This document shows, piece after piece, positions 2,661 through 45,642 of a stretch of DNA of 45,764 bases; the stretch's first letter is position 1, and the number at the start of each line of letters is the position of its first letter. The translations under genes were made by a program, and so were the position numbers. Source of the DNA: a virus; the IMG/VR virus record IMGVR_UViG_3300009181_000128, positions 1 through 45,764 of that record. One strand, written 5' to 3'. The notes under the pieces are model-generated. The model saw only the letters and a list, made by a program, of their open reading frames with translations, was not told where the DNA came from and did no database searches.

Positions 2661-2690
2661 ATGGCTAATGAATTTTTATCCGGAGAATAG
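2661..2690 (+). other. Nine-codon leader ORF overlapping the next start
   Basis: The ATG at 2661 has the best start context here (AAAAATGG) but reads only MANEFLSGE before TAG at 2688. The large virion gene begins 7 bases later in another frame. This may be a real leader peptide, a decoy start or a sign of a base error. Confidence 0.3.
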
Positions 2691-5944: not shown

Positions 5945-7768
5945 ATGGAAAACTTATTAGAGAGCGGGATACAACAGGAAACAACCTATTGGACAACCTC
6001 CAGAATAGACGAATTACTTAGGAGAGTTGATGAGGAGGGACTTGATTATAAAAGTGTCGATAATCCATTCCATGACAATAATCCTGAATTAAAGAGGGCT
6101 AATATTCTTTGGGAGTACACCAATGAGGAAATCCTCGAAATGAAAAAATGTGCGGAGGACGTAACTTACTTTTCTAAATATTGTAAAGTAATGACTGATA
6201 CGGGTCTTGATTATATTAAACTTAGAGATTACCAGGAATCTGTACTTAGAGAATACCAGGGAAGTAGATTTAATATATTTCTTGCACCAAGACAGGTTGG
6301 AAAATCCATCACATCATCAATAATTCTAGTTTGGTATCTCCTTTTTAATCACGATAAGAATGCGATGATTCTTGCAAACGTTGGAGATACAGCGGAAGAA
6401 CTTATGGACAAGATAAAGGCCATTATAAAAGGACTACCTTTCTTTCTGAAGCCAGGCATAATGGTTAATAACGTGATGTCAATGCGTTTTGATAATGGCT
6501 GCAGAGTTCTTGCTAAAACAACTACTAAAACATCAGGTATCGGTTTTACAATCCATTTTTTATACATGGATGAGTTTGCACACATTAATGCCAACTTTAT
6601 CGAAGCTTTCTTTAGATCAACATATCCGACTGTTTCCTCGTCTAAGGTTTCAAGAATCATAGTTACATCAACACCCAATGGTATGAATAAGTTCTATGAA
6701 CTTTATCAGGGTGCTCTTAATGGCGAAAATAGTTTTAATCCGATCAGGGTTGATTGGTGGCAAGTACCTGGAAGGGATGAAGCATGGAAACAGCGGGAGA
6801 TCGGTAACCTAGGTAGTGAGGAACTATTTAATCAGGAATATGGTAATCAATTTTTAAGTTCATCTAGCTTATTATTAGGATCAAATGAACTCAGAAAGAT
6901 AAGAAGAAATGAAACTGAATATTTCTGGAAAGAAATAGAGTGTCTTCACGACAGTGGAATAAGCTACGAAAACCTATTATGGCATCCGAAGTTTGATTTG
7001 GAAAAGTGTGATTTACCAGGTAAGAAATTTGTTCTTTCTATAGATTTAAGTGGAGGGGGAAGCGGTGATTTTACCGTGATTAATATATTTAAAGTTACTC
7101 CACTTCCTATGGAGGTCATGGATAGAATAGAGGAATTTGAGGATGAGGCTGATTTCTTTGGACTAGTTCAGGTTGGCGTATTTAGGGATAATGAAATAAA
7201 GCTGGAGGAGTTTAGCAAAATTCTACAGCTAATGTGCACTGAATTATTCACCGTTGATAGGGTAAAAGTAGCACTGGAGATGAATTTCAAGGGCGAGCTT
7301 TTATACGATAAGCTTATGCAGAGAGATGATTTCTTTGATGAGATGTTCTTATTCACTAAACATACGGAGAGTGCAAGAGTGCTAAAACCTGGTATAAAAT
7401 ACAACGAAAAAAATAAAATGAAATATTGTGAGATGCTAAGAAGCCTCATAAAAGCGGATCGTATATTAATTAATGAAAAGAAATGGACCGTTCCTGAACT
7501 TTTTACTTTCGGTTTAAATAATAGGGGCACGTACTCGAGTCAGAGCGGGCACGATGATGTTGCTATGACTTTGGTCAATCTCCCAGGACTATTTGATGGT
7601 TACGACTTTAATCAGATAGTGGGTGATGTTTTTGATGAGCTTGAAGACAGTACTTATAAGAATGCTATAATCAGAAAGCTAGAGGGTGGACAGGGTCTGG
7701 ATGAAGATTCAAGAGGACCCGTTACCAAGGACGGTAAAAGCTACGGTGATTTCAGTAAACTAATGTAA
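5945..7768 (+). CDS. 17: Terminase large subunit, packaging ATPase-nuclease (gp17)
   Basis: A 607-residue packaging motor, the same size class as T4 gp17 (610). The ATPase domain has Walker A APRQVGKS (114-121), Walker B FLYMDE (D209, E210) and the coupling motif TSTPNG (241-246). The RNase H-fold nuclease domain has the three acidic sites at D367 (LSIDLSGG), E445 (VALEMNFKG) and D537/D538 (SGHDDVAM). It cuts concatemeric DNA and pumps it into proheads through the portal. Length and all motifs are intact, so it should be functional. It follows gp16 by one base; after it an 83-base gap leads to the sheath gene with its own late promoter. Confidence 0.97.
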   Translation: MENLLESGIQQETTYWTTSRIDELLRRVDEEGLDYKSVDNPFHDNNPELKRANILWEYTNEEILEMKKCAEDVTYFSKYCKVMTDTGLDYIKLRDYQESVLREYQGSRFNIFLAPRQVGKSITSSIILVWYLLFNHDKNAMILANVGDTAEELMDKIKAIIKGLPFFLKPGIMVNNVMSMRFDNGCRVLAKTTTKTSGIGFTIHFLYMDEFAHINANFIEAFFRSTYPTVSSSKVSRIIVTSTPNGMNKFYELYQGALNGENSFNPIRVDWWQVPGRDEAWKQREIGNLGSEELFNQEYGNQFLSSSSLLLGSNELRKIRRNETEYFWKEIECLHDSGISYENLLWHPKFDLEKCDLPGKKFVLSIDLSGGGSGDFTVINIFKVTPLPMEVMDRIEEFEDEADFFGLVQVGVFRDNEIKLEEFSKILQLMCTELFTVDRVKVALEMNFKGELLYDKLMQRDDFFDEMFLFTKHTESARVLKPGIKYNEKNKMKYCEMLRSLIKADRILINEKKWTVPELFTFGLNNRGTYSSQSGHDDVAMTLVNLPGLFDGYDFNQIVGDVFDELEDSTYKNAIIRKLEGGQGLDEDSRGPVTKDGKSYGDFSKLM

Positions 7769-7851: not shown

Positions 7852-10800
7852 ATGGCAAATAAGGTAAAAATAGACTACTCGCAGTTTAGAGCGTCTGGAG
7901 TTTATACGTTGGAATTCGACGCATCGCAAAATGTAATTCTAACATCGCAAACTATTAGATTAGTGGTTGGATTCTCTAATAAGGGACCTTTCAATACACC
8001 GGTTTATATTCCTGACGTAACAACACTAATATCTATTTTTGGTGACGTAGACAGATCACTAGAAAATAAAGGTTCCTTCTTTCAGAGATCGATACTAACT
8101 TGTTTAAATACGGGTCCAGTTTTTGGATTGAATCTTTTAAGATTAAATGACGACGTGGAAACAGCAAATCCGGATAAGGTTACATACCAAGCATACTCTG
8201 TTGACACGGAGGAAGCTAATGGAGTTGTAACATCCAGACTTTACTCCTCTTATTACAATAAGGAGAGATTTTGGTTCGCAGATCCTAATTACTTCCTTGC
8301 AACACTAAGCGTTGCTGACCAGGGTAAATTATTCAGTCTTACTAATCTAGGTAAATCACCAATGAGTATCATCACTAGAAAATCTACGGATTCTTCTAAA
8401 CCTCTTAAAGGTTATGATATATTCGCAATAGATTGGTACGGAGCTAATAATGTACCTACTTTTATGCACCCTTATGATTACATCTCTGATTACTTTATTG
8501 ATGTAATTGCAGTTTATGGAAACTGGACAAATTATCAGGCATTAGCATTAGATCCCTATTATAGTAAATACTTTACTAACAATGGATTTATTAAAAGTAA
8601 GATAGACGCATTTCTTGCTGAACCTAATGTTTCCATAGTTACTTCTGTTACTGGATGTATCATACCTGACTTTGTTGATCTTAATGGAATTAATCAATAC
8701 ATACAAACACTAGTTAATAATAACACACCTTCAAGCGGTTTATTCTGTGCGATTGATGAAGTTGCATTCGATTCAATTTGTGATAACTCTTCTAAAATAG
8801 ATTTAGTTGGTAATCACTTAATTGATGAATTAACTGGCGATAGAGACCTTGTAACTCCTAGCATTAATTTCTTAAGTTATGATCAGGTACTAGTTGCTGA
8901 CTACTTATACTCACAAAATGTTGTTGGTGTAACTGGAGCAACTGGATTTGTTAGCCCTACCGGTGGTATAGTTTATGCTAAAGGTCTTAATGTTGGTACT
9001 CTTTTCACTCTTACTGAAGCCGGTGTTACTGCTGGTGTAATAAACAGTTCTTTTGCGGCTTACGATCCTACTGCATTTGATGGTGGATTACATTATCTTC
9101 AAACATTAGGTCTAACTGGTGCCACTGGTGGATTTAATAACGCTATACAAAAGGATTCTTTAAAAAGCTTCGTATCTGTTACATCATCTAACGATGAAAA
9201 ATTTATAATTGGTGTAGTTTCTGGATATACAGGAGGTTTAACGGGGGCATTAATAAACCAATTCTCTGAAGCTTCTCTTGTTAAATTAAAAGTTACCGGA
9301 ACTAAAGAAGTTTCGGGAGAATTAAGAATATTCTTTACACACCCTCTCGATAATGCTTTCTATAGGGGACAAGGTATATCTGTTGGTCCTACATATAACC
9401 TAACGTCATATAATACTGGTGCATCGGGAAGTAATAAACCATTCTATACGGATGCTTATCAATTTGGTAACTCCGATTATACCGATATTATTAGTGTAGC
9501 TACACCTGATGGTGTTACTGGACCTGGTGCTCCTCTGGGAGTTTCTAATGTTCTAGTTGGCTACAATGCTTCACCATTATTCCAGGATAATAAATATGCA
9601 GCAATTGCTGATGGTGATTTGGTTTGGAGAAACTCTGCAGGTACTAACCTTAGCTATCTGGGATTTGAAACCACTGTTGATAAGGATCAATTTGACCTGA
9701 CATATGTTAGAACATTCAGTAATGTTGACAGGGCCGAGGCGACTATAGTAAACGTTCCTGCATTTGGAGCTACTTATGCTTCTGATAATGTGGGGTTTCC
9801 TGTAAGCGCACAAGCATTTGATATAATTTCACAAGAAGGATCTATTAATCAATTCATAGATTGTACTAGAATAGACGTTACAACATTCTTGATAACTCAG
9901 GACAGCCTTGGTAATGTTCCTTTATCTGTCGGAGATTTGGTTGTTTCTACGGATCTTGATATATGTGAACCAGTAACGGGTAACAGACAAAGCAGATTAG
10001 CTAAGGTTACTTCGGTTGCTACCACGACAACTCTTGGAACATACAGGGTAAAAATAGCAAGACCAGCTCTCTATTACACTGCTGGCGTTGGACTTAGAAT
10101 TCAAAAATTCCTGTCGATATCCCAATTTACAAGATCTTTTGACTTCACATACTTAAGCGGATTCACAATGACTGACTCGCACAGACCTAACGGTAGTGAC
10201 GCTAGACTTAGTGATATACTTGATGTTATGTATGATACCAACATAGCTAAAACATTAGCCTCTAAGGACATTATATCATTCAGATACGTTGTGGATACGT
10301 TTTCTGGACAGATTTTACCTAACTCTAAATACCAACTTAGTAAGCTTGCTAAATTAAGACAACAAGCTCTTGCTATTATAAATGCTCCTTCAATGGCACA
10401 ATTTAGAGCTAGTACGGATCCTAGATTTACTGATGCTCCAACAGAACCAAATCCATATCCGAAATTAAATACTGCTTATATCGCAGATGGTGGTAATTTA
10501 TCTCTTAATCCTACATACACCTTTAGTTTACCTAGTGAAGATGATGGATCTAAATTCTGTGGTTTCTATTCCCCTTTTATTACAGTAAGGGAATCAAATA
10601 GAAATATAGATGTCCCACCAGCAGCATACGTTTCTAATAACTTCCTTAGAAAATTCGCAAACGGTGAACCTTATGCAATTATCGCAGGACAGAAAAGAGG
10701 GGTTATAAGCGGAGGAAATATCGTCGGTGTTGAATATGACTTTACTGATGAGGATAGAGGAAACTTAGAGCCTTTCGGTATAAATCCAATCATCAAGAGA

Positions 10801-11199
10801 AGAGGTATCGGAGTAATTATCTTCGGTAACCAAACTGCTTACCAACAAGTTAACTCAGCTTTCAACTTGGTCCATGTAAGGGATCTTTTAATCAGTATAG
10901 AAAGCGACGTACAAGAGATATTAGCTAACTACCTATTTGATTTTAATGACGATTCAATAAGACTTGAGATTAAAACATTAGTTGATAATTACCTTGATGG
11001 TGTTAGAGCAGGTGGTGGTGTTTATGCTTACCAAACTATAATGGATGCATCAAATAACACTCCGGCAATCATCGATATGAATATGGGTATAATTGACGTT
11101 ATAATTGAACCTGCTAGGGGAATTCAGAAATTCATTAATAGGGTTACTGTTACTAGAACTGGTGGAATCGCAGCTGGAGGATTCGTACAATTTGTATAA
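7852..11199 (+). CDS. 18: Contractile tail sheath protein (gp18-like)
   Basis: An 1115-residue sheath protein. The C-terminal third carries the conserved sheath fold, including GFYSPFITVRESNRNIDVPP, a segment around KRRGIGVIIFGNQTAY, and the C-terminal strand region ending GGIAAGGFVQFV that links neighbouring subunits. The N-terminal region starts with the usual sheath opening (SGVYTLEFDAS, VGFSNKGPFNTPVYI). T4 gp18 has 659 residues, so about 450 extra residues are inserted in the middle (roughly 330-760). These are rich in Gly and Thr with repeated TGATG-like motifs and probably form outer domains on the tail surface. It precedes the two tube genes, the standard T4 order 17-18-19. Confidence 0.93.
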   Translation: MANKVKIDYSQFRASGVYTLEFDASQNVILTSQTIRLVVGFSNKGPFNTPVYIPDVTTLISIFGDVDRSLENKGSFFQRSILTCLNTGPVFGLNLLRLNDDVETANPDKVTYQAYSVDTEEANGVVTSRLYSSYYNKERFWFADPNYFLATLSVADQGKLFSLTNLGKSPMSIITRKSTDSSKPLKGYDIFAIDWYGANNVPTFMHPYDYISDYFIDVIAVYGNWTNYQALALDPYYSKYFTNNGFIKSKIDAFLAEPNVSIVTSVTGCIIPDFVDLNGINQYIQTLVNNNTPSSGLFCAIDEVAFDSICDNSSKIDLVGNHLIDELTGDRDLVTPSINFLSYDQVLVADYLYSQNVVGVTGATGFVSPTGGIVYAKGLNVGTLFTLTEAGVTAGVINSSFAAYDPTAFDGGLHYLQTLGLTGATGGFNNAIQKDSLKSFVSVTSSNDEKFIIGVVSGYTGGLTGALINQFSEASLVKLKVTGTKEVSGELRIFFTHPLDNAFYRGQGISVGPTYNLTSYNTGASGSNKPFYTDAYQFGNSDYTDIISVATPDGVTGPGAPLGVSNVLVGYNASPLFQDNKYAAIADGDLVWRNSAGTNLSYLGFETTVDKDQFDLTYVRTFSNVDRAEATIVNVPAFGATYASDNVGFPVSAQAFDIISQEGSINQFIDCTRIDVTTFLITQDSLGNVPLSVGDLVVSTDLDICEPVTGNRQSRLAKVTSVATTTTLGTYRVKIARPALYYTAGVGLRIQKFLSISQFTRSFDFTYLSGFTMTDSHRPNGSDARLSDILDVMYDTNIAKTLASKDIISFRYVVDTFSGQILPNSKYQLSKLAKLRQQALAIINAPSMAQFRASTDPRFTDAPTEPNPYPKLNTAYIADGGNLSLNPTYTFSLPSEDDGSKFCGFYSPFITVRESNRNIDVPPAAYVSNNFLRKFANGEPYAIIAGQKRGVISGGNIVGVEYDFTDEDRGNLEPFGINPIIKRRGIGVIIFGNQTAYQQVNSAFNLVHVRDLLISIESDVQEILANYLFDFNDDSIRLEIKTLVDNYLDGVRAGGGVYAYQTIMDASNNTPAIIDMNMGIIDVIIEPARGIQKFINRVTVTRTGGIAAGGFVQFV

Positions 11200-11244: not shown

Positions 11245-11799
11245 ATGGCAGGATTATCACATTTTCAAAATTCACTATCAGGAATAAACAAGTTTGAACC
11301 TGTTTATTTAAACCAGTTTGAGGTTACTATTTTACCTCCTGCTGCTGTTGCTGGTGGTGAGATATTACTACAGCACGTTAATAAAGTGTCTGGCCTTTCT
11401 TTGGATAAAAACCCTGGTGTTATAGCACAAAAGTATAAATTTGCTAAAAGAAACTACGCTGGTGCTAAACCGGAGAACACCTATATGGACGTGAGTTTAA
11501 GTTTTACTGTCAATCTTAATGACGCTAATTCGATGTATGTACATAAAACATTAAGACAATGGTCAGATTTAATCTATAATCCCTTAACTGGTGCTATGGG
11601 TCTTAAAAACGATTATACAGGTACTATCGTAATATCAATCTTTAACAAGCAAGGTGATGTATACAGAAGAATAACTTGTAGAGATTGTTTTCCTACTAAA
11701 CCTATAACTGCTATGAATTTAAGCTACATGTCAACGGATCTATATAAAATTGATGACATGTCTTGGGCGGTTGATTACTGGGAAGATCTATTCTTATAA
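11245..11799 (+). CDS. 19: Tail tube protein, copy 1 (gp19-like)
   Basis: A 184-residue member of the T4 gp19 tail-tube family (T4 gp19 is 163 residues). Typical segments are YLNQFEVTILPP near the N-terminus, SFTVNLNDANSM, and LRQWSDLIYNPLTGAMGLK, ending VDYWEDLFL. The protein stacks as hexameric rings inside the sheath and forms the DNA channel. It lies 45 bases after the sheath gene and 14 bases before a clear paralogue. Copy 1 has a shorter loop after the first strand pair than copy 2. Which copy builds the main tube and which a cap, initiator or special ring cannot be told from sequence. Confidence 0.93.
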   Translation: MAGLSHFQNSLSGINKFEPVYLNQFEVTILPPAAVAGGEILLQHVNKVSGLSLDKNPGVIAQKYKFAKRNYAGAKPENTYMDVSLSFTVNLNDANSMYVHKTLRQWSDLIYNPLTGAMGLKNDYTGTIVISIFNKQGDVYRRITCRDCFPTKPITAMNLSYMSTDLYKIDDMSWAVDYWEDLFL

Positions 11800-11813: not shown

Positions 11814-12389
11814 ATGGCAGGATTACCACATTTTACAAACTCTAAAGCAGCAATAAACTATTACGATCCGGTTTATCTGAACCAGTTCGAGGTGCTTATA
11901 AATCCACCATCAGGAATTGTTGATTCAGCTACCACATTTAAAGGTGAAAGTATATTAGCACAACAGGTTAAATCTATAACTGGATTGGCAGTAGATATTG
12001 CTCCTGCTCAGACAGTTAATCAGCAATATAAATTTGCTACCAGAAGATATGCTGGCGGTGAACCTTCTCAGAGTGATATGACACTTTCCATGGAATTCGA
12101 GGTTAACTTGAATGACGCTAATTCTATGTCTGTTTATAAAATTCTTAGACAATGGTCGGATTTAATCTATAATCCACTGACAGGAGCAATGGGTCTAAAA
12201 TCTGACTATGTCGGATCTATGTCTATATCAATATTTAATAAAAGAGGTGATGTCTTTAGAAGAATAAGAATACCTTCTTGCTTCTTGAGCGAGCCTATAA
12301 ATGCAATGGAACTTGATTATGAAACACCAGCTATATACAGCATAACTGCTAGTTGGGTTTGTGATTACTGGGAAGATCTATTCTTATAA
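11814..12389 (+). CDS. 19: Tail tube protein, copy 2 (gp19-like)
   Basis: A 191-residue tube paralogue, closely related to copy 1 over the whole length: YLNQFEVLINPP, FEVNLNDANSM, LRQWSDLIYNPLTGAMGLK and the same ending YWEDLFL. The last codons of both genes are almost identical at the DNA level (GATTACTGGGAAGATCT shared), pointing to tandem duplication or gene conversion. Differences concentrate in the loop after the first strands, with extra residues near 35-45, and in the last third. It ends 31 bases before the terminator stem, closing the sheath-tube operon. Confidence 0.92.
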   Translation: MAGLPHFTNSKAAINYYDPVYLNQFEVLINPPSGIVDSATTFKGESILAQQVKSITGLAVDIAPAQTVNQQYKFATRRYAGGEPSQSDMTLSMEFEVNLNDANSMSVYKILRQWSDLIYNPLTGAMGLKSDYVGSMSISIFNKRGDVFRRIRIPSCFLSEPINAMELDYETPAIYSITASWVCDYWEDLFL

Positions 12390-19701: not shown

Positions 19702-20376
19702 GTGGCTGATAGCAACATAGAAATTAATGACTTCGACGGGGGTAGTTCGAATACAGGTAATGATACATTTTTCGTAGGCGGAAGTGCAGGATTTGCATTA
19801 GATCCATTAGCTGGCTCAACGGGTGGATTTAATACTGAATACATTAATATTTCTCAGCAGGTTGATGATCTGGAAAGAATAGAGGCTACTTTTAAGAGAT
19901 TTAATGATCCAACGGAATTAAGATTTATAAAGGAATCTTTTAATGTAACAAAGCAGGATAAAACCCTCGATGTACTGGATGTTGCTGATTTTTTTCACCC
20001 TTTGCAGAGTTTTTCCGATTACCAGAAACAAACTATGGTAATAGCACCAAGAGCATCAGCTAATCTTGATCCGTCATCTTTTATAAATACAAACGGAGAG
20101 GTATCTATGATTATAGCTAGAGCATACTATCTTCCTGAAACACCAAGTGAAAGTAAAATACTATTTTGGGATTACAAAGGGACGGAAAGAAACATTATGG
20201 GTGAGCTTATGATTTTAACGGGAGCTATCAAAGAAGGTTATAACTGGAAAGGATGGGATGTTGATCCATTTAGCACTTACGGTCACACAGGAAATGCCAA
20301 TAGTGCATTAGGAGGATTTATTTTTACTAATCCCACAGACTATAATGTAAAACTAACAGTAATAACAGCAAACTAA
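19702..20376 (+). CDS. Putative virion accessory protein A
   Basis: A 224-residue protein with a GTG start in a purine-rich context (AAAAGGTGGCTG). The C-terminal 130 residues are paralogous to the next gene: both have RNIMGELMILTG/TNYMGELMVLTG, a Gly-Trp pair, a GGF-x-F or GGM-x-F turn followed by NP, and a final strand ending V/L-T-V-I or E-I-L-V. The first 95 residues are extra and rich in Gly, Asn, Ser and Asp. Beta-rich, no membrane segment, no catalytic motif. Likely a capsid decoration, fibre or whisker component, judging from composition and neighbours; this is inference. Confidence 0.6.
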   Translation: MADSNIEINDFDGGSSNTGNDTFFVGGSAGFALDPLAGSTGGFNTEYINISQQVDDLERIEATFKRFNDPTELRFIKESFNVTKQDKTLDVLDVADFFHPLQSFSDYQKQTMVIAPRASANLDPSSFINTNGEVSMIIARAYYLPETPSESKILFWDYKGTERNIMGELMILTGAIKEGYNWKGWDVDPFSTYGHTGNANSALGGFIFTNPTDYNVKLTVITAN

Positions 20377-20377
20377 T

Positions 20378-20863
20378 ATGGCAACTCAACCTATAAAATG
20401 TCCCTATGATTTACTGGAAGGATTCAGATTTTACAATGGAAACCTTGTACTAGATAACGGAATGACCAATAATCCTCCGAATTATCTTCTGATGAAGGAT
20501 ATCAAGATGGGTATCGATAACTTTTCAAGAAGTAGAATAACATTAAAACCAGGAGCTTGTTTTCTTTTAAGCCAAACAGATATAGGAAACAACCAGGGAT
20601 ATGTTTCTTTTATAGCGGTTAAAGCTGTGTATCCAGACTTGACCGTAGAATCAAAGAAGTATATAAATTGGACATATCTTAATAATACAAATTATATGGG
20701 TGAACTCATGGTTCTTACTGGCCCAATGTTATCGTCGGTAAGCTCCACTCCTGAGGGATGGAATTTATCCAAACCTAACGTTGTTTTTAATAATGGGGGA
20801 ATGGTTTTTTGTAATCCTAGTGCTGATTTTACTGTCAAATTGGAAATATTGGTCTGCAGATAA
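20378..20863 (+). CDS. Putative virion accessory protein B (paralogue of A)
   Basis: A 161-residue beta-rich protein, starting one base after the previous stop. It corresponds to the C-terminal domain of the preceding protein: ITLKPGACFLLSQTD against MVIAPRASANLDPSS, NYMGELMVLTGP against NIMGELMILTGA, and NNGGMVFCNPSADFTVKLE against a GGFIFTNP segment. So a single domain was duplicated, one copy gaining an N-terminal extension. No enzymatic motif. A virion decoration role is a guess from its fold-like composition. Confidence 0.6.
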   Translation: MATQPIKCPYDLLEGFRFYNGNLVLDNGMTNNPPNYLLMKDIKMGIDNFSRSRITLKPGACFLLSQTDIGNNQGYVSFIAVKAVYPDLTVESKKYINWTYLNNTNYMGELMVLTGPMLSSVSSTPEGWNLSKPNVVFNNGGMVFCNPSADFTVKLEILVCR

Positions 20864-23763: not shown

Positions 23764-24249
23764 ATGACCGATATTAAAAAGGTAAAACCTAATGGTGAAT
23801 ATCGATCTGGAAAATATGATCCTAAGAATCCCGAAAAGTATATTGGTGATATTCATAATATCATCTATAGATCATCATGGGAGTATAGATTTTGCATGTA
23901 TTGCGATACTAATGATGCTATACTTAAATGGAGTTCGGAGCCTGTTGCTATAGACTACTATAATCCACTCGATAAGAAGGAGCATAAGTATAATGTTGAT
24001 TTCTATATAAAGGTTCTTAAAGAGGATCAGCAAACACAGGACTGGATAATCGAAATAAAACCAGATAATCAAACAAAAAAACCTCTATATGAAGGTATAA
24101 TGACAGTAGCAAAGCTGAAGTCTTATAATAGAAATATGCAAATATGGATAACGAATCAGGCTAAGTTTAAAGCTGCTAGGGATTGGGCAGAAAAAAGAGA
24201 TTATAGATTTGGTGTTATTGGCGAGGATTTTCTATTTAAAAGCAAGTAA
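23764..24249 (+). CDS. 4: Head completion nuclease-fold protein (gp4-like)
   Basis: A 161-residue protein of the T4 gp4 head-completion family (T4: 150 residues). It shares the opening SGKYDPKNPEKYIGDIHNI with the SGKWVPKNISKYRGD region of T4, then YRSSWEYRF (E40), KYNVDFYIK (D79) and WIIEIKP (E97, K99). These E/D/ExK positions are those of a TnsA-like PD-(D/E)XK nuclease fold, and they look intact. In T4 the protein finishes DNA-filled heads before tail joining. It follows the gp55-like gene by 9 bases and overlaps the next gene by one base. Confidence 0.88.
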   Translation: MTDIKKVKPNGEYRSGKYDPKNPEKYIGDIHNIIYRSSWEYRFCMYCDTNDAILKWSSEPVAIDYYNPLDKKEHKYNVDFYIKVLKEDQQTQDWIIEIKPDNQTKKPLYEGIMTVAKLKSYNRNMQIWITNQAKFKAARDWAEKRDYRFGVIGEDFLFKSK

Positions 24250-24851
24250 TGTACAAAGATTTAGTATTAGAATATAAGAATGATCCCAAGAACACTGGAA
24301 ATATTTATAATATAACCAATGATTTTTTTCTTGGCAAGTATTTTAAAAACGGCAATCCGGATAAAAAATTTAAACCACCATTCGTCCCTGGCGAGATATA
24401 TTCCTTTAATTACCAGACTGACAGTAAAATAACTGAGAAGAGACCATTCATAGACAGGATGCCTTTGGTTATTTGTACCGATGTATTTGAAACGAAAGAA
24501 TCTGGACTTATATTAAAGGGTATAGATATAATAACGGTTCCACTTAGAACCAGAGTTGATATACTGGGTAAGATATATGATAATTTTACTGAGCAGTTAA
24601 AGAATAATGATGCGACATATAGAAAGGGAGGTGAGAGAACACCCATAAATTTAAAGGATAAGGTTTTAACAAATCTTCTTAGAAATACTGGATATACTAA
24701 ATCATTGTTTGGTTTTAAGACAGGATTCGCAAAGGATATAAAAATAATAGACTTCTCAGACTGGTCTAAAGTGCCATATTTGACAGTAAATTTTATAGAG
24801 GGCTTGAATGTGCAGGAGATATATAAACAATATCAATCGAAATTAATTTAA
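24249..24851 (+). CDS. Conserved phage protein, possible head or baseplate component
   Basis: A 200-residue protein with a pattern seen in many T4-like phages: PGEIYSFNYQTDSK, then KRPFIDRMPLVICTDVF, then GLILKGIDI. The last two thirds are mixed alpha/beta and basic. Its position after gp4 corresponds to gp53 (baseplate wedge) in T4, but I see no convincing gp53 similarity; a DNA-end protector or head-tail joining role is equally possible. Start overlaps the gp4 stop by one base (TAATG), showing coupling. The 3' part holds a GATATATAA motif that may serve the portal genes. Confidence 0.65.
   Translation: MYKDLVLEYKNDPKNTGNIYNITNDFFLGKYFKNGNPDKKFKPPFVPGEIYSFNYQTDSKITEKRPFIDRMPLVICTDVFETKESGLILKGIDIITVPLRTRVDILGKIYDNFTEQLKNNDATYRKGGERTPINLKDKVLTNLLRNTGYTKSLFGFKTGFAKDIKIIDFSDWSKVPYLTVNFIEGLNVQEIYKQYQSKLI
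24818..24826 (+). promoter_or_regulatory. Possible late promoter inside the gene before the portal
   Basis: GATATATAA lies in the last codons of the preceding gene, 59 bases before the portal start. Because it is inside coding sequence the match may be accidental; the spacing is longer than at the other late motifs. Confidence 0.3.
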
Positions 24852-24885: not shown

Positions 24886-26496
24886 ATGGCTGGTTTTGTA
24901 GAAAATAATAATACATCACAGACTCCTGTAATGCAGAGGATCAGGGATTCCGTAAGGAAACTTAGTACCTTTGGTATGAAGTACGATGACATGGTCATTC
25001 GTAATTCACAAGCAGTTGGTGTTACAGAGGCAGCTTTCTTAAATAAGAATAAATCTAATGTCGAGGACGAGAGCATGTTATGGACTCTTGCCAAGCAGGA
25101 TATATCATCCCGACAATTTATAGGGTACTTTGATAAGGACTACAAAGGGAAAAGAGATTTTCTTAGAAAATTTTCACTTAATCCCGAGATAGAATGGGTT
25201 TTAGATACCGTTTGTGACGAGGCTATTTCTTATGATTCATCAAACTTTTTTGCTTACCCTGATTTTATAGATCTTAGCGATATTAACGATAAGCTTAAGG
25301 ATGATTTATATAACACATATAAGACATTATATGACACGTGGGGATTTTCTGATGATATTACCGCATGGCAATATTTTAGACAATTTATAATAGACGGATT
25401 TTTAGCATTCGAGATAATCTACGACGATAAGGGACAGAATATAATAGGATTCAAGGAGCTTGATGCTATTACACTTATTCCTAGCGTCGAGAAACAGATA
25501 GATGGTAGCTTCATGAGTACATGGACACAATACCCGCAGGATCCTAAAAAGAAAAGAGTACTTTACGAACCTCAGATCATTTACATCTCCTATGCTAAGG
25601 GTAATTCAATTTCAAGGATAAGTTACATTGAGAGATTGATAAGACCGTATAACATCCTTAGAATAATGGAATACACCAGAGTTATCTGGTCTGTTATGAA
25701 TGCTTCATTTAAGCTTAAGATGACAGTTCCTATCGGATCTAAATCTCAACAAAAAGGTATGCAGACTCTAGGGGAGTTAATGAGTATCTATAAGGAGGAC
25801 ATTGAGCTTAATGATGAAAGCGGTGAATTAACAATAGACGGAAGGCCTAAGATTCAGTTCTATAAGAATTATTTAATGCCATCAGGTGTAAATGGAACAC
25901 CTACTATAGAACCAATAACAACCGATGGGCCTAATCTAAATGATCCGCAACCTCTAGCTTATTTCTTCGATAAATTTATACTGGAATCTAAAGTTCCACC
26001 ATCAAGATTCCATAATCCTGACGGAGGTAGCACATCTCCATATTCGAATGGTGCTGAAGGATTAGATAAAGAGGAAATAAGATTCTCCAAATTTATATCC
26101 AGATTAAGATCAGTTTTCCAGGAGATAATGATTAAACCTCTTTGGATACAAATGGCAAAGAAATATCCTAAATTGGAAGACGACTTTATGTTTAAGAGTC
26201 AATTAGGATTAGACTATTTTTCTGATAATCCATTTAAGCTTAATCAGGAAATGGATATGATGAATAAGAGGAAGGAAGGTATATCAGCGATGGGTGGATT
26301 ACTTGGCGACGAGGAAAAACCATATTTTTCTAATGCTTTTCTTATAGAGACATTCCTTGGTATGTCTAAGCAGGACATAGATGCTAATAAAGAAGCCCTC
26401 GAAAGAAAGGCAAAGGAGAAGAAAAAGGAAGAGGAAAAAGGCAAAGAAGGTGGAGAGAAAAAAGAGGGTGAAGAAGCACCCGAAGTAACACTATAA
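24886..26496 (+). CDS. 20: Portal protein, copy 1 (gp20-like)
   Basis: A 536-residue portal protein (T4 gp20: 524). It carries the family segments LRKFSLNPEIEWVLDTVCDE, WQYFRQFIIDGFLAFEIIYD, IIYISYAKGNSISRISYIER, then the RPYNILRIMEYTRVIW stem helix, MQTLGELMSIYKEDIEL and QFYKNYLMPSG. The portal ring is the DNA channel, the packaging motor dock and the nucleus for prohead assembly. The C-terminus is Lys/Glu-rich and ends APEVTL. A full-length paralogue follows after 4 bases. Nothing suggests that either copy is degraded, so the ring may be mixed or the copies may act at different stages. Confidence 0.93.
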   Translation: MAGFVENNNTSQTPVMQRIRDSVRKLSTFGMKYDDMVIRNSQAVGVTEAAFLNKNKSNVEDESMLWTLAKQDISSRQFIGYFDKDYKGKRDFLRKFSLNPEIEWVLDTVCDEAISYDSSNFFAYPDFIDLSDINDKLKDDLYNTYKTLYDTWGFSDDITAWQYFRQFIIDGFLAFEIIYDDKGQNIIGFKELDAITLIPSVEKQIDGSFMSTWTQYPQDPKKKRVLYEPQIIYISYAKGNSISRISYIERLIRPYNILRIMEYTRVIWSVMNASFKLKMTVPIGSKSQQKGMQTLGELMSIYKEDIELNDESGELTIDGRPKIQFYKNYLMPSGVNGTPTIEPITTDGPNLNDPQPLAYFFDKFILESKVPPSRFHNPDGGSTSPYSNGAEGLDKEEIRFSKFISRLRSVFQEIMIKPLWIQMAKKYPKLEDDFMFKSQLGLDYFSDNPFKLNQEMDMMNKRKEGISAMGGLLGDEEKPYFSNAFLIETFLGMSKQDIDANKEALERKAKEKKKEEEKGKEGGEKKEGEEAPEVTL

Positions 26497-26500
26497 TAAG

Positions 26501-28129
26501 ATGGCAGGATTTTTAGATTTTTTAAAACCGAATCAATCTGCACTAGGTAATATATTAAAAAACCTAGGCAACATATCAAAATTTGGCATGCAGTATGATG
26601 ATATGGTTGTGAGAAACTCGCAGGCCATTGGTAAGACGGAGGGATTTTTCTATAATCAGGACGGAAATGGATTTACCGAGAATGATGCGTTTTATTGGAC
26701 AGCTTCATATCAGGACACAAAGGTAAGAAAATATATTGCTTATTTTGATAGAGATTATATTGATAAAAGAAACTATCTAAGAAAGTTTTCTCTAAACGGT
26801 GAGATTGAATTTATACTCGATACCATTACTGATGAGGCGATTACTTACGATGATAGAAACTATTTTGCGCAGCCTTCATTTATAAACATAGATCTTAAAG
26901 ATAAGATTAAGGATAAGATGGCTTCTCATTATAATAGACTTTATAATGTTTTTGGATTTCAGAATACAGTATTAGGTTGGCAATACTTCAGACAATTCCT
27001 AATAGATGGATTTCTTGCATTTGAATTAATCTATGACAATAAGGGTAAGGAAATTATAGGATTTAAAGAATTGGATCCAGCATCTCTGCAGCCTGTCGTT
27101 GAAAAGGTTGGTGAAAATGAACACAGACAGTTTTGGATACAATATCCGAAGAATCCACAAATGACAAGAAAGCTTACCAATGAGCAGGTTATCTACATAT
27201 CATATGCTAAGGGTAATAGCATATCTAGGGTTAGTTATATTGAAAGATTAGTAAGATCGTATAATATATTAAGGATAATGGAGAACTCCAGAGTGATCTG
27301 GAATGTTATGAATGCATCCTATAGATTAAAATTCATTATACCTATTGGAACGCAGTCCCCACAAAAGGCAATGCAGACTCTTGGTCAATTAATGGCAAAC
27401 TATAAGGAGGATATAAATATTAACGATTCTTCAGGTGAATTAACAGTAAATGGTAGACCAAAGGTTCAATTCTACAAGAATTATTTATTTCCTGAAAAAG
27501 ATGGGGTGTCTCCGGAAATATCATCGCTTAATTCAAGTGGTCCTGATTTCAATGTAATGGAGAATGTTCTATATTTCTTCAATAAGTTAAAAATGGATTC
27601 AAAAATACCATACGCTAGATTTGCATCAAAAAGTGGAACCCCCGCGACATACCAAATAAGTATAGATCAGTTAGAAAGAGACGAGATTAGATTTGAAAAG
27701 TTTCTAAGAAGATTAAGATCCATATTTCAGGAACTTCTTGTAAAACCACTTTATATTCAGATGTGTTTAGACAATCCTGAATTATCAAGGGACAAGAGTT
27801 TTAAAGCCAATATAGGACTTAACTATAACAGGGATAGTGAATTCGAGGAAATGGTTGAGATGTCCGGATATGCTAAGAGAAGTGAATTTATTAAGGGACT
27901 AGAAGAACTAAAGGTAAAGGCTGGTGAGGAAGACAAACCTTACTTCGATCCGGATTTCCTAATTCAGAGATTTCTTGGACTTAATCCTGACCAGATTAAA
28001 ATGAATGATAAGTATAAGGAAAAAGAAGCTAAGGCAGCTGCACCAGCAGAAGGGGAAGCTGCTGCACCAGCGGAAGGAGAAGCTGCACCGGCAGAGGGTG
28101 AAGAAAAAGCACCTGAGGTAACACTATAA
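26501..28129 (+). CDS. 20: Portal protein, copy 2 (gp20-like)
   Basis: A 542-residue portal paralogue with the same segment order as copy 1: FGMQYDDMVVRNSQAIG, LRKFSLNGEIEFILDTITDE, WQYFRQFLIDGFLAFELIYD, YISYAKGNSISRVSYIER, SYNILRIMENSRVIW and QFYKNYLFP. It differs in the N-terminal 30 residues, the loop after QFYKNYLF and the C-terminal tail, which has Ala/Pro/Glu/Gly repeats (APAEGEA) before the shared end APEVTL. Start lies 4 bases after the copy 1 stop, so both are translated from one message. Full length and conserved core indicate selection on both. Confidence 0.92.
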   Translation: MAGFLDFLKPNQSALGNILKNLGNISKFGMQYDDMVVRNSQAIGKTEGFFYNQDGNGFTENDAFYWTASYQDTKVRKYIAYFDRDYIDKRNYLRKFSLNGEIEFILDTITDEAITYDDRNYFAQPSFINIDLKDKIKDKMASHYNRLYNVFGFQNTVLGWQYFRQFLIDGFLAFELIYDNKGKEIIGFKELDPASLQPVVEKVGENEHRQFWIQYPKNPQMTRKLTNEQVIYISYAKGNSISRVSYIERLVRSYNILRIMENSRVIWNVMNASYRLKFIIPIGTQSPQKAMQTLGQLMANYKEDININDSSGELTVNGRPKVQFYKNYLFPEKDGVSPEISSLNSSGPDFNVMENVLYFFNKLKMDSKIPYARFASKSGTPATYQISIDQLERDEIRFEKFLRRLRSIFQELLVKPLYIQMCLDNPELSRDKSFKANIGLNYNRDSEFEEMVEMSGYAKRSEFIKGLEELKVKAGEEDKPYFDPDFLIQRFLGLNPDQIKMNDKYKEKEAKAAAPAEGEAAAPAEGEAAPAEGEEKAPEVTL

Positions 28130-28157: not shown

Positions 28158-29132
28158 ATGGGATTAAATATACAGCAGGAATTTTTAAAATCAAAAATAC
28201 TAGTAATCGGTGACATAATGCTGGATCATTATGTTATTGGAACGGTTTCCCGTATTTCACCGGAATCCCCAGTTCCTGTATTATTAAAGGAGTCTGAGCA
28301 TTACTATTTAGGAGGAGCGGGGAATGTATTTTCTAATGTTCATAGTCTTGGTGGACACAGCGATATATTATCTGTTATAGGTGATGATGCTTCTGGAGAT
28401 ATTGTAATGGAGAGTGTTAATTCAAAATCAGATTTAAGTATCCTGCTGAAGTCTTCTTCTAGAAAAACAACATGCAAATCAAGATATATCTGTAATTCAC
28501 ATCAGCTTCTCAGAGTTGATGATGAAACATGCGATAATATAGATCTTGCTACTTCCGATTCTTTTATTAAAAAATATAGATCAATTATTGATCTATATGA
28601 TTGTGTGATAATAGAGGATTATAACAAAGGACTATTAACGCCTGATGTAATAAAGCAATCAATATCAATAGCAAAATCCAGAAATAAGATGGTTATAGTG
28701 GATCCTAAGATCAAGAACATCGGATATTATTCAGGATGCACATATCTCAAACCAAATTTTTCAGAGTTCTGCCTAATGGTTGATGAAAAATTGGAGATAT
28801 CAAATATCAGCCATATAGTCAATAAAGCAAGAGAAGTATTAACTACCATGTCAATTGAAGGAATACTAATAACCCTATCAGATAAGGGTATTTTGTATGT
28901 TGATTCTACCACTCATCATCATAGTCTAGGTTACCCGATTAATGTTTCTGATGTCTCCGGAGCTGGAGATACAGTAACTGCAATGTTTGCGCTTGCAACA
29001 TGCACGGGGCTAGATATAGAAAATTCACTAGCTCTCTGTAACATAGCAGGATCTATAGCGTGCTCACGGACAGGAGCAGTATCTGTTAACATCTCAGATG
29101 TCATAAAAAACCAATATTTTAAATTCAGATAG
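28158..29132 (+). CDS. hldE: D-glycero-D-manno-heptose-7-phosphate kinase (HldE N-terminal domain)
   Basis: A 324-residue PfkB-family kinase that matches the first domain of E. coli HldE. Shared stretches: VIGDIMLDHYVIGTVSRISP, ESPVPV, YYLGGAGNVFSNVHSLGG (GG 52-53), IIEDYNKGLL, VIVDPK and YLKPNFSEF. The catalytic anion-hole motif GAGD is at 268-271 (D271 as base). The enzyme phosphorylates heptose-7-phosphate at O-1 in the ADP-heptose pathway. The nucleotidyltransferase domain that completes HldE is missing, so the protein is HldA-like; phage genes outside this window or host enzymes would have to complete the pathway. It follows the portal genes by 28 bases. Confidence 0.88.
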   Translation: MGLNIQQEFLKSKILVIGDIMLDHYVIGTVSRISPESPVPVLLKESEHYYLGGAGNVFSNVHSLGGHSDILSVIGDDASGDIVMESVNSKSDLSILLKSSSRKTTCKSRYICNSHQLLRVDDETCDNIDLATSDSFIKKYRSIIDLYDCVIIEDYNKGLLTPDVIKQSISIAKSRNKMVIVDPKIKNIGYYSGCTYLKPNFSEFCLMVDEKLEISNISHIVNKAREVLTTMSIEGILITLSDKGILYVDSTTHHHSLGYPINVSDVSGAGDTVTAMFALATCTGLDIENSLALCNIAGSIACSRTGAVSVNISDVIKNQYFKFR

Positions 29133-42060: not shown

Positions 42061-43764
42061 ATGAAATTGATTAACGAACAAGAAATCTATGATACCTGGT
42101 CTCCGATTATCGAGAGCAAAGCAGGAATCACTGATTCAAACAAAAAAGAGTGGTTGACTAAATATTGTCACTATCACTCATTAAACGAGTCTGCCGGAGC
42201 ATATAACTCATTAGGAGTTGTTAACGGTATGGGCGCAGTTTCTCCCCCATTATTCCCAGGAATGAGTTCATTTACGGGTAATGCTAATGCAGGTTTTTAT
42301 AACGCAGCAAACAGCGGATCTGGAGATAAATTCCCTTCATTATTACCTCTAGCAATTCAGGTTGCTGCTAAAACAATCGGTTTTGATATCGTTCCAGTTA
42401 TTCCTATGTCAGGTCCTACAGGTATCTTATCTTACTTAGATTACGTATACGCAGGTGGTAAAACTTCAGGTGCTACTTCAGCTACAGCTGGTGACAGTTT
42501 AGCTAAAGCTCCTGCAATGATTAAATTCCCAGTTTATCAAAGTGCTGCAGGAACTGGTGTTACTGGTGCTACTGCAGGTACATTTACTGTTGGTACTTCT
42601 TACACAGTTACTAATGCTGGTGTTTTAACTTTGCTCTTTGTCGGTCTTTCAAGAATTGATGGTTTCCCAATCTTTGAAATCACAAACATTACTGACGGTT
42701 ATAATGTAGCTCGTATCATTAACGGAACAGCTGCACAAGTAGGTTCTACTGGATTCTACACTGGTGCTTCTTCAGTTAATTTTTCAGCTCAATTGGTTAA
42801 AGCTTTAGAAGATCATATTCAAGGTTTCTCTGGTGCTGGTTTCAATGACACGAATGATTGGCAAGGTCCTTACGTAGATGGTACTAAAACTTACAACCCT
42901 ATGTTAAGAGGAGTTGGAGAATCTACTTACTACAACTCAATGGGTCTTTCGACTTTCACTAAGTTCGTAGAAGCTGAAACTTTCCAAGTTGCTGCTTCAG
43001 TTACAACTGAGCAAATCCAAGATCTTAACAAACAATTCGGTATCGACGTTATTTCAATGATCGAGAACGCATTGGTTAATGAGGTTTCTCAAGCTATCAA
43101 CAAGCACATACTTTCAAGAGCATTCGCTTTAGGTTGGTCTAATCACACAACATTCAGCAACGTAGAAAACCAAAACTTGAACTTGAACTTAATAATTAAT
43201 GGTAGTGCTGGTACTACAACATCTTATATTAACAAATCTGACAGTAATGTCTCTATGCAATTACCTGCAGGTCCTGCTTCAACTAGCTATGAGAACTTAT
43301 CAACTCTACAAAGAAGATTGTTCTCTAGAATTCTTGCAGCTGGTAACGTAGTAGCTAACAGAGGTAGAAGAGGTCCAGCTAACTTCATCGTAACAAACGC
43401 TGCAGTTGCAAGTGCACTTCAAGATATCTCTCAGTTCACTTTCGCTCCATTCTCTAACACTTTAACTCAAAATAACGGTACTTTATACCCTGTAGGTTCT
43501 CTTGCTGGTATGACAGTTTATGTGGATCAGAATATGAGCTACAGCGATACAAGAGTATTAGTTGGAAGAAAAGGTGGTGATGACGAACCAGGACTTAAAT
43601 TCATGCCTTACATGATGGCAGAGTCTATCCAAACTATCAGTGAGGGTACGATGAGTCCAAAAATAGCAGTAAAATCTAGATATGCTTTAGTTGAAGCTGG
43701 TATGTTACCTGAAACTATGTACTTAACATTCTTTGTTAACGTACCTACTGGTGGTTTAGCATAA
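42061..43764 (+). CDS. 23: Major capsid protein (gp23-like)
   Basis: A 567-residue capsid protein of the T4 gp23 (HK97-fold) family. The start matches the T4 pattern of a helical propeptide (EIYDTWSPIIESKAGI). L41-N42-E43 before SAGAYNS is a likely protease cut, as T4 gp23 is cut after L-T-E; the mature chain would be 524 residues. Further family segments: IPMSGPTGILSYLDYVYAGG, RGVGESTYYNSMG, ANRGRRGPANFIVTNAAVAS and the C-terminal KIAVKSRYALVEAGMLPETM. About 100 residues rich in Gly, Thr and Ala (around 145-230) look like an inserted surface domain. Codon choice is biased toward highly expressed forms relative to neighbours. Confidence 0.95.
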   Translation: MKLINEQEIYDTWSPIIESKAGITDSNKKEWLTKYCHYHSLNESAGAYNSLGVVNGMGAVSPPLFPGMSSFTGNANAGFYNAANSGSGDKFPSLLPLAIQVAAKTIGFDIVPVIPMSGPTGILSYLDYVYAGGKTSGATSATAGDSLAKAPAMIKFPVYQSAAGTGVTGATAGTFTVGTSYTVTNAGVLTLLFVGLSRIDGFPIFEITNITDGYNVARIINGTAAQVGSTGFYTGASSVNFSAQLVKALEDHIQGFSGAGFNDTNDWQGPYVDGTKTYNPMLRGVGESTYYNSMGLSTFTKFVEAETFQVAASVTTEQIQDLNKQFGIDVISMIENALVNEVSQAINKHILSRAFALGWSNHTTFSNVENQNLNLNLIINGSAGTTTSYINKSDSNVSMQLPAGPASTSYENLSTLQRRLFSRILAAGNVVANRGRRGPANFIVTNAAVASALQDISQFTFAPFSNTLTQNNGTLYPVGSLAGMTVYVDQNMSYSDTRVLVGRKGGDDEPGLKFMPYMMAESIQTISEGTMSPKIAVKSRYALVEAGMLPETMYLTFFVNVPTGGLA

Positions 43765-43842: not shown

Positions 43843-45642
43843 ATGATATATACAATAAAAGATATATTTGGACACATGGAGCATTCTAACGAATTACAAT
43901 TACTGATTACTACCTTAATAACTTGCAGGGACACTGGAAGAAGTTCAACTGGGGAGTTTACTAGAATGAGAGGAAATATTACTCTCCTATCCGAAATTAA
44001 TATACTTACTGAATATCTTGATTATTTATATGATAATATAGAATTGGGTCAGAGATTATATCATCTCAGAGAAGGTATTTGTGATATTCAGTATTGTGGA
44101 TGCTGCAAATCTGAGGGTCGTAGCATTGGTAGAAAATTCCACAGACTGAGCACGGGATATTTTGCAACCTGTGGTTCTAATGAATGCAAAAAGAAAACTA
44201 AAGTCGAATCATTTAAGACAACAATAGAAGAAAAATACGGGGGAAATTATTTCGGAGAAGGTTCTATAGCTAGGGAAAAATATAAATCCACAATGCTAGA
44301 AAAATATGGTGTTGAACATAATTGGAAACCTGGTGAATTAAGAGATGTTGGCGAAACAACAATGCTTGATAGGTATGGGGTTAAGCATGCATTATCCGAT
44401 CCTGAAATGGTTAAAAAAAGAAATGCAACGTGTATTAAACGACATAATACGGTGGATTTTTTAAACTCCATAAAATCAAAAGAAACAACATTAGCTAGAT
44501 ATGGAGTAAATAATGCTATGCAAAATAGTGAAGTTGCTAAGAAAGTTTCGGTGTCGTCATCAATAACAAAACAAAAGATGTTATCAGATAAGCTAGCTCC
44601 TTTTAATATAAATCTTATTGATTATAATTCTATTAGATCTAAATTTTTATGTAACAAATGTTCAACATTATTCGACAATCATCCAGTTACCATAAATCAT
44701 AAGATTAGAATAGCATCCGATCCCTGCACTAAATGTAATCCACCAAGTCTCACCTCATCGATGTCGGAGAATGAATTTTCAGATTTTATTAGCAGCATAT
44801 ATTCTGGACCTATTAAAAAAAATGATAGAAATCTTTTTAAGACAAATCCAAGGTTTTCTGAAGTCGATGTATATTTGCCTGAATTAGGAATAGCTTTTGA
44901 ATATAACGGTTTATACTGGCATTCTGAAATGTATAAATCCCCGACATACCATATAGAGAAAACGCAGCATCTATTAGGCAATGGCATAAAATTATTCCAT
45001 GTTTGGGAGGATGATTGGTTATATAAAAAAAATATAGTAAAATCTATGGTTTCTTCAATTCTTGGAAATTCCATTAGAATATATGCAAGAAAATGTAAAA
45101 TTAATTATGTTACTTCTGCAGAGTATGTTAAATTTTCTAAGGAAAATCATTTAAAAGGTTATTCGACTGCAAGTAAAGTAATAGGTCTATATTATAATAA
45201 TGAATTAATTTCATTAATGAGCTTTTCAAAGACACGTAAATTGATAGATTCAGGCAATAGCATATATGAATATGAATTAATAAGAAGCTGCACAAAAATG
45301 AATTATTCTGTTATTGGTGGGGCCTCCAAACTTTTTAATTTTTTTGTTAATAACATAGGTAAATCACTGGTAACTTATTGCGATGTATCATTTTCACCAG
45401 ATTTAATGGGTACTGTTTATAATAAATGTGGCATGAAATATTTGAAGCTAACTAGCCCGGGATATTATTGGGTAATAGACGGAAAGAGATCAAATAGATT
45501 AAACTGGACAAAACAAAAATTGGTTGATGCTGGTTATTCACCAGAGAAAACTGCGGATCAGATTATGTCAGAACTTGGTGCTTATAAAATATGGGACTGC
45601 GGAAATCATAAATTTTCTATGATATTTAATGAAAAAATATAA
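43843..45642 (+). CDS. Free-standing homing endonuclease, Vsr-like (EDxHD) type
   Basis: A protein of up to 599 residues. The N-terminal part has paired cysteines (CGCCKSEGR, CGSNECKKK) of a zinc module. Next come repeats of the type TMLEKYGVEHNWK, TMLDRYGVKHALSD and TLARYGVNNAMQNS, known as DNA-binding modules of phage homing endonucleases. A second cysteine pair module (CNKCSTLF, CTKCNPP) precedes the nuclease: SEVDVYLPELGIAFEYNGLY followed by WHSE and LFHVWEDDW, a Vsr-like PD-(D/E)XK fold. A C-terminal domain of about 200 residues follows. It sits right behind the capsid gene, so the capsid locus of related phages is the probable target. Start is ATG 43843, or ATG 43876 if the motif at 43845 is a promoter. 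Confidence 0.82.
   Translation: MIYTIKDIFGHMEHSNELQLLITTLITCRDTGRSSTGEFTRMRGNITLLSEINILTEYLDYLYDNIELGQRLYHLREGICDIQYCGCCKSEGRSIGRKFHRLSTGYFATCGSNECKKKTKVESFKTTIEEKYGGNYFGEGSIAREKYKSTMLEKYGVEHNWKPGELRDVGETTMLDRYGVKHALSDPEMVKKRNATCIKRHNTVDFLNSIKSKETTLARYGVNNAMQNSEVAKKVSVSSSITKQKMLSDKLAPFNINLIDYNSIRSKFLCNKCSTLFDNHPVTINHKIRIASDPCTKCNPPSLTSSMSENEFSDFISSIYSGPIKKNDRNLFKTNPRFSEVDVYLPELGIAFEYNGLYWHSEMYKSPTYHIEKTQHLLGNGIKLFHVWEDDWLYKKNIVKSMVSSILGNSIRIYARKCKINYVTSAEYVKFSKENHLKGYSTASKVIGLYYNNELISLMSFSKTRKLIDSGNSIYEYELIRSCTKMNYSVIGGASKLFNFFVNNIGKSLVTYCDVSFSPDLMGTVYNKCGMKYLKLTSPGYYWVIDGKRSNRLNWTKQKLVDAGYSPEKTADQIMSELGAYKIWDCGNHKFSMIFNEKI
43845..43853 (+). promoter_or_regulatory. Possible late promoter motif GATATATAC
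   Basis: GATATATAC lies just after the capsid terminator and 22 bases before the second in-frame ATG (43876) of the homing endonuclease. It overlaps the codons after ATG 43843. If real, the gene starts at 43876. Confidence 0.4.

Follow-up and report, generated by a model that had tools for sequence, protein, structure and literature searches.

The window, that is, the whole stretch of DNA analyzed, spans 45.8 kb and is part of the genome of a large phage related to T4. It contains two genes for gp20-like portal proteins in tandem on the + strand, portal A (24886–26496, stop included; 536 aa) and portal B (26501–28129, stop included; 542 aa), with a 4-nt gap from the stop codon of A to the start codon (ATG) of B. 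A gp4-like head closure gene (23764–24249, + strand, PHROG 218) forms an operon-like run with the portals, and a gp2-like DNA end protector gene (24249–24851, + strand, weak match to PHROG 429) lies immediately upstream of portal A; the same gp2-like/portal gene order is found in Tenacibaculum phage PTm1. Kinase and replication genes follow downstream, and protease and capsid genes come later. The terminase large subunit gene (5945–7768, + strand) is present in a single copy without a paralogue in the window, and the major capsid protein gene (42061–43764, + strand) in one full-length copy; for the latter, whole records of relatives were searched as well. A neck-type gene (PHROG 679) is located at 2668–5157.

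Some further features of the window were recorded. A PfkB-family sugar kinase gene (28158–29132) separates portal B from the DNA ligase gene. Directly 3' of the capsid gene is a homing endonuclease gene (43843–45642); nearly the same place is occupied by a homing endonuclease in Tenacibaculum phage PTm1 and by segD in T4. The adjacent ORFs 19702–20376, which gave no Pfam match, and 20378–20863 are remote paralogues (29% identity over 122 aa). In a scan for regulatory sites, promoter-like sites around the portal pair were not above chance; terminator-like sites exceeded those in shuffled sequences, but none was on the + strand between or just after the two portal genes, so the scan adds nothing on the expression of the pair. 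Regarding the host, no relative was found in a scan of 84,980 species genomes.

By sequence, neither of the two predicted portals, taken singly, stands out within its known portal family. The first-pass annotation had described two intact gp20-type portals 4 nt apart, and this was borne out by ORF, Pfam, PHROG, and BLASTP analyses. Both gene products matched PHROG 213 (‘portal protein’) and the Portal_T4 family (PF07230, cut-off 22.9), A with 192.9 bits over profile positions 9 to 431 of 433 and B with 231 bits over positions 4 to 433 of 433. The two proteins share 51% identity over 505 aa (BLASTP, E = 0). Alignment to T4 gp20 indicated that wing, stem, clip, tunnel loop, and crown are all kept in A and B. 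The domains of A were mapped by this alignment, and a fold model was made for B alone (31 alignment rows); it aligned to T4 gp20 over residues 85 to 516 with a Z-score of 16.8 to 9lu7_a, at a mean pLDDT of 58 that suffices for the fold and not for interfaces. For a natural A-B read-through in a single frame (L024, with stop codons read as Gln), AlphaFold gave a pLDDT of 46 and a pTM of 0.30, values too low to inform on an A-B interface. The clip tip, S-x-QK-x-MQTLG-x-LM, is nearly identical in A and B; in the T4 portal, it is the place where the terminase binds (PMC4493910).

Scans of 2.9 million viral contigs (metagenomic phages) yielded 160 loci with complete A-B pairs, comprising 91 distinct pairs and 53 clusters at <96% identity. 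A preceded B in every complete pair, with a gap of 1 to 23 nt, and no loss of either copy was found among the 91 distinct pairs. Loci with a single full copy were all cut by a contig end, with the exception of L290. The portal frame is split into two ORFs at L290:8373–9986 (copy A) and at L209:10001–11596 (a single-copy portal), by either a sequencing error or a real interruption. Whole records of the dual-portal clade (127–434 kb) contained exactly two portals each. The nearest relatives have one portal: a marine clade with about 80 contigs (L121, L136–L214), LR756500, the 635- to 735-kb phages (LR756501-4, LR745206), and Lak. A second full-length portal of this family was absent from a collection of 50,697 phage records, in which 2,191 records had 2,193 portal places; the two extra places belonged to LR756501/3, and that in LR756501 is a truncated ORF.

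In a maximum-likelihood tree with 25 single portals, all A copies formed one clade (support 100/99), all B copies another (100/99), and A and B together a third apart from the single portals (99/97), thus placing a single duplication on the stem of the clade. The A and B subtrees were near-congruent, with stem branches after the duplication of 0.58 and 0.54. Identity between A and B was 47 to 53% within every genome, whereas A-A and B-B identities averaged 73% each, and single-copy portals were about equally distant from both copies (identities of 0.44 and 0.45). The phylogenetic check on clade-wide conservation called for by the first-pass annotation therefore found the duplication kept in all 91 distinct pairs; judged from these trees and identities, the portal duplication is an old, single event, fixed across a clade of giant phages.

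Both copies are under strong and equal purifying selection, with a median dN/dS of 0.020 for A and 0.015 for B. Relative to the single-copy state, 14 sites have changed in A only, 9 in B only, and 10 in both. The distances among A copies correlated with those among B copies (r = 0.95). After accounting for seven neighboring genes, the partial correlation between A and B was 0.78, which ranked first among 36 gene pairs, the second reaching 0.51; the common length and the linkage of the two genes could partly explain this linkage of rates.

Differences between the copies were evaluated at diagnostic positions, at which A and B have different residues, each fixed to at least 95%. There were 21 such positions. 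Stem, clip, and tunnel loop, with 147 columns together, contained 16 of them, and the N-terminus, wing, and crown (392 columns) the other 5. This is an excess in the channel region relative to shared conserved sites (Fisher p = 0.0038; p = 0.0009–0.008 at other thresholds). In a control, this excess was not clearly greater than that among the differences between sister-clade portals (p = 0.09–0.64). As channel sites are also common where the single- and dual-portal clades differ, only the second stem helix together with the tunnel loop stands out (9 of 33 versus 1 of 34, p = 0.006 at 80% fixation), and this excess was weaker at the strictest cut-offs (p = 0.07–0.09). The segment, equivalent to T4 residues 361 to 398, was assigned by alignment to 25951–26070 in A and to 27563–27679 in B (both + strand). 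Its mean family charge was −0.8 (SD 0.4) in A, +3.1 (SD 0.3) in B, and +0.7 (SD 0.6) in single portals. The channel loop, which has been described for T4 (PMC4493910) and corresponds to about residues 350 to 362 of gp20, was located by alignment and diagnostic sites at 25924–25956 in A (+ strand, GPNLNDPxPL class) and at 27536–27568 in B (+ strand, GPDFNVMeNV class); in single portals, it reads GPELSDTeaL.

The first-pass annotation had further placed the greatest divergence in loops and C-terminal tails. This holds for raw identity, which was lowest in the crown plus tail (0.30) and in the tunnel loop (0.31), but not for copy-specific divergence: the deficit ratio relative to variation within each copy was 1.45 for crown and tail versus 2.3 to 3.9 for stem, tunnel loop, and clip. 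As estimated from these alignments, crown and tail are simply fast-evolving, and the copy-specific divergence lies in the clip, stem, and tunnel loop. The tails of A and B close with one common motif in many genomes, here APEVTL (26476–26493 in A and 28109–28126 in B, both + strand). Similarity of the tails within a genome's own pair was matched in 0 of 5000 shuffles, which take no account of phylogeny. Recent gene conversion of the motif was ruled out because the codons of A and B differ synonymously.

The only other close paralogues in the window are two tail tube genes, a point absent from the first-pass annotation. T1 (11245–11799, + strand, 184 aa) and T2 (11814–12389, + strand, 191 aa) are separated by 14 nt and encode products with 57% identity. 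T1 gave no Pfam match and matched PHROG 3629 and 4542, both ‘tail tube protein’ (2.6e-9 and 1.3e-4), and by its identity to T1, the predicted product T2 is assigned to the same family. The two genes come after a probable tail sheath gene (7852–11199, 1115 aa), of whose product the last 100 residues alone match a sheath C-terminal domain, at a score below the Pfam cut-off.

The tandem tube pair co-occurs one-to-one with the dual portal. It was present in 42 of 42 dual-portal contigs in which the tube is covered, namely the window, 10 of 10 long records, and 31 of 31 further contigs; seven further dual-portal contigs gave no tube match and were left out of this count. A single tube was present in every single-portal genome in which a tube was found (six named records and 13 contigs, 12 of them from the marine clade). 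The tube tree gave supports of 80/78 for T1, 100/99 for T2, and 94/93 for T1 and T2 together. A 373-kb relative has 365 ORFs that are at least 100 aa long; among these, the portal and tube genes formed the only two near-full-length paralogue pairs with at least 50% identity, the next pair having 35%. Since both duplications fall on the same branch, they represent one coincidence in time and not a repeated correlation.

For the two portals, the first-pass annotation had offered a mixed ring, two classes of portal, or a role of one copy outside packaging. That there are two selected portals proved correct, and of the three readings, the mixed ring is, on indirect grounds, the best fit to the adjacency of the genes, the common terminase tip, the equal constraint, the charge split of the tunnel segment, and the linked rates; the other two are less probable. 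We regard the chances as about even that A and B are obligate subunits co-assembling in one two-component portal ring within a two-component DNA conduit. Produced together from their adjacent genes, they would form a heteromeric ring of twelve subunits, in its simplest form six A alternating with six B. The clip tip shared by A and B would face the terminase and the crowns would be directed into the head, while the A/B differences would sit where neighboring subunits and DNA meet, in the stem helices, the channel loop, and the tunnel loop. T1 and T2 would form a matching two-component tube, giving a conduit from the head to the tail tip made of two kinds of subunit. More tentatively, the whole conduit may be two-component, with an alternating A6B6 portal and a two-protein tube, both duplicated on the same branch, and with the 12-fold symmetry of a homomeric channel lowered in a genetically encoded way; co-assembly, alternation, and any advantage are steps that we infer.

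Data from T4 are compatible with such a ring. The T4 stack consists of a portal 12-mer, a gp13 12-mer, and a gp14 6-mer (PMC12270204); given this stacking of six-fold gp14 on 12-mers, an A6B6 ring would fit six-fold partners by sequence instead of by conformation. T4 rings kept prohead function when GFP-fused portal occupied as many as about half of the positions (PMC9958956), and this tolerance of tagged subunits indicates that mixed T4-type rings are physically possible. The tunnel loops of T4 narrow the channel and probably contact neighboring loops, and their deletion alters the stoichiometry of the ring (PMC4493910).

Alternatively, A and B might form two separate homomeric portals, with A-ring and B-ring heads as two particle classes or as early and late forms, and T1 and T2 likewise. 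Every domain of a complete portal is found in each copy alone, and divergence at interfaces would be expected here as well, where it could keep A and B rings apart. We nevertheless consider this arrangement unlikely, as capsid, terminase, and other head genes have no matching duplication, the gap of 1 to 23 nt offers no obvious means of separate expression, and constraint is equal, with no loss in the 91 distinct pairs. It is similarly doubtful that one copy serves as the packaging portal, with the other having moved to a role as neck adaptor, in a core or initiation complex, or as terminase regulator. The full set of domains and the terminase-docking tip persist in both A and B, the two copies evolve at equal rates and with equal dN/dS, single-copy portals resemble A and B to about the same degree, the changes are split 14/9/10 (A only/B only/both), and a neck-type gene already lies elsewhere in the window (2668–5157). 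Such a change would have parallels, however, in that phage structural paralogues often switch role, as did gp23/gp24 and gp19/gp54 of T4, and small stand-alone clip-like proteins in LR756500 and LR756502 suggest that portal pieces are re-used.

A ring in which A and B are mixed at random, without fixed order, and are interchangeable copies kept for dosage or robustness, seems improbable. It would agree with most conserved residues being common to A and B and with T4 rings accepting tagged subunits in as many as about half of their positions (PMC9958956), whereas 21 differently fixed positions and the tight charge split (SD 0.3–0.4) are not expected of interchangeable copies. A recent duplication or assembly artifact, which the first-pass annotation had named as what might undo its claim, or else a pseudogene, has the tandem placement alone in its favor and a negligible probability: it was ruled out by the occurrence of 91 distinct pairs in many independent metagenomes, an A-B identity of 47 to 53% everywhere, and a dN/dS near 0.02.

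Portals are regarded as one-gene rings of identical subunits, and how a 12-fold portal fits its mismatched partners is a long-standing puzzle. Two subunit forms in one portal population are known from phage lambda, where gpB and gpB* arise by proteolysis of one gene product, while two genes are involved here. Duplicated structural genes with specialized products at different places of the particle are represented in T4 by gp23/gp24 (capsid) and by gp19/gp54 (tail tube and junction protein); these paralogues are far diverged, whereas A/B (51% identity) and T1/T2 (57%) are adjacent and evolve at similar rates. T4 gp20 itself (PF07230; PDB 3JA7/6UZC/9LU7) belongs to the same family as A and B and has the same domain order, gp2/gp4-like neighbors, and downstream protease and capsid genes, but forms a homododecamer from one gene, in contrast to two full-length genes per genome in this clade. 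The nearest named relatives, the portals of LR756500, the 635- to 735-kb phages, and Lak, are 33 to 46% identical to A and B, and unlike the dual-portal clade, each of these phages has a single full-length portal and, as far as detected, a single tail tube. The same contrast applies to the marine clade, whose portals are about 44 to 45% identical to A and B and whose tubes are 47 to 53% identical to T1: it has one portal, and one tube in the 12 contigs where this was found. AlgoCIS was rejected as a two-tube precedent because its tube layers consist of Alg1 alone, with Alg5 and Alg7 as initiators; Bacteroides BIS clusters (contractile injection systems) have two tube genes, in an unstated arrangement.

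No description of a two-gene portal was found in the literature searched, which lay outside subscription journals and bioRxiv preprints; apparent matches for ‘two portal proteins’ concerned a pair of phages, alternative conformations (two), or prophage islands of Wolbachia. A fixed two-gene portal combined with a fixed two-gene tube, found neither in the phage collection nor in the literature searched, thus appears to be new. In this clade of giant uncultured phages, the entry ring and the exit tube for DNA are each predicted to be made from two genes, which suggests a two-part channel. The joint duplication of portal and tube, with nothing else at that level in the 373-kb relative, suggests that the DNA channel evolves as a single unit. 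If A and B mix, subunit-specific mutation of the ring would become possible, e.g., of each tunnel-loop charge class separately, an option not available with a one-gene portal.

Partial portal and capsid ORFs were also observed. The truncated second portal of LR756501 (L332:1021–2046, 342 aa) resembles the N-terminal half, has 33% identity to the full portal of the same phage across 287 aa, and lies ~70 kb away from it. Apparently free-standing clip domains are encoded in LR756502 (L333:2350–2808, 153 aa) and LR756500 (L334:915–1481, 189 aa); the sole portal similarity of these ORFs is to about residues 265 to 335, with roughly 32 to 43% identity in the better matches. Conserved ORFs of ~150 to 160 aa that resemble only the N-terminal part of the major capsid protein occur at L335:924–1370 (G001), at corresponding places in G002 and G006–G011, and at L333:1274–1768, the last adjoining the clip-only ORF in LR756502. 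In several genomes of the dual-portal clade, a separate ORF of ~300 aa matches capsid residues about 290 to 545.
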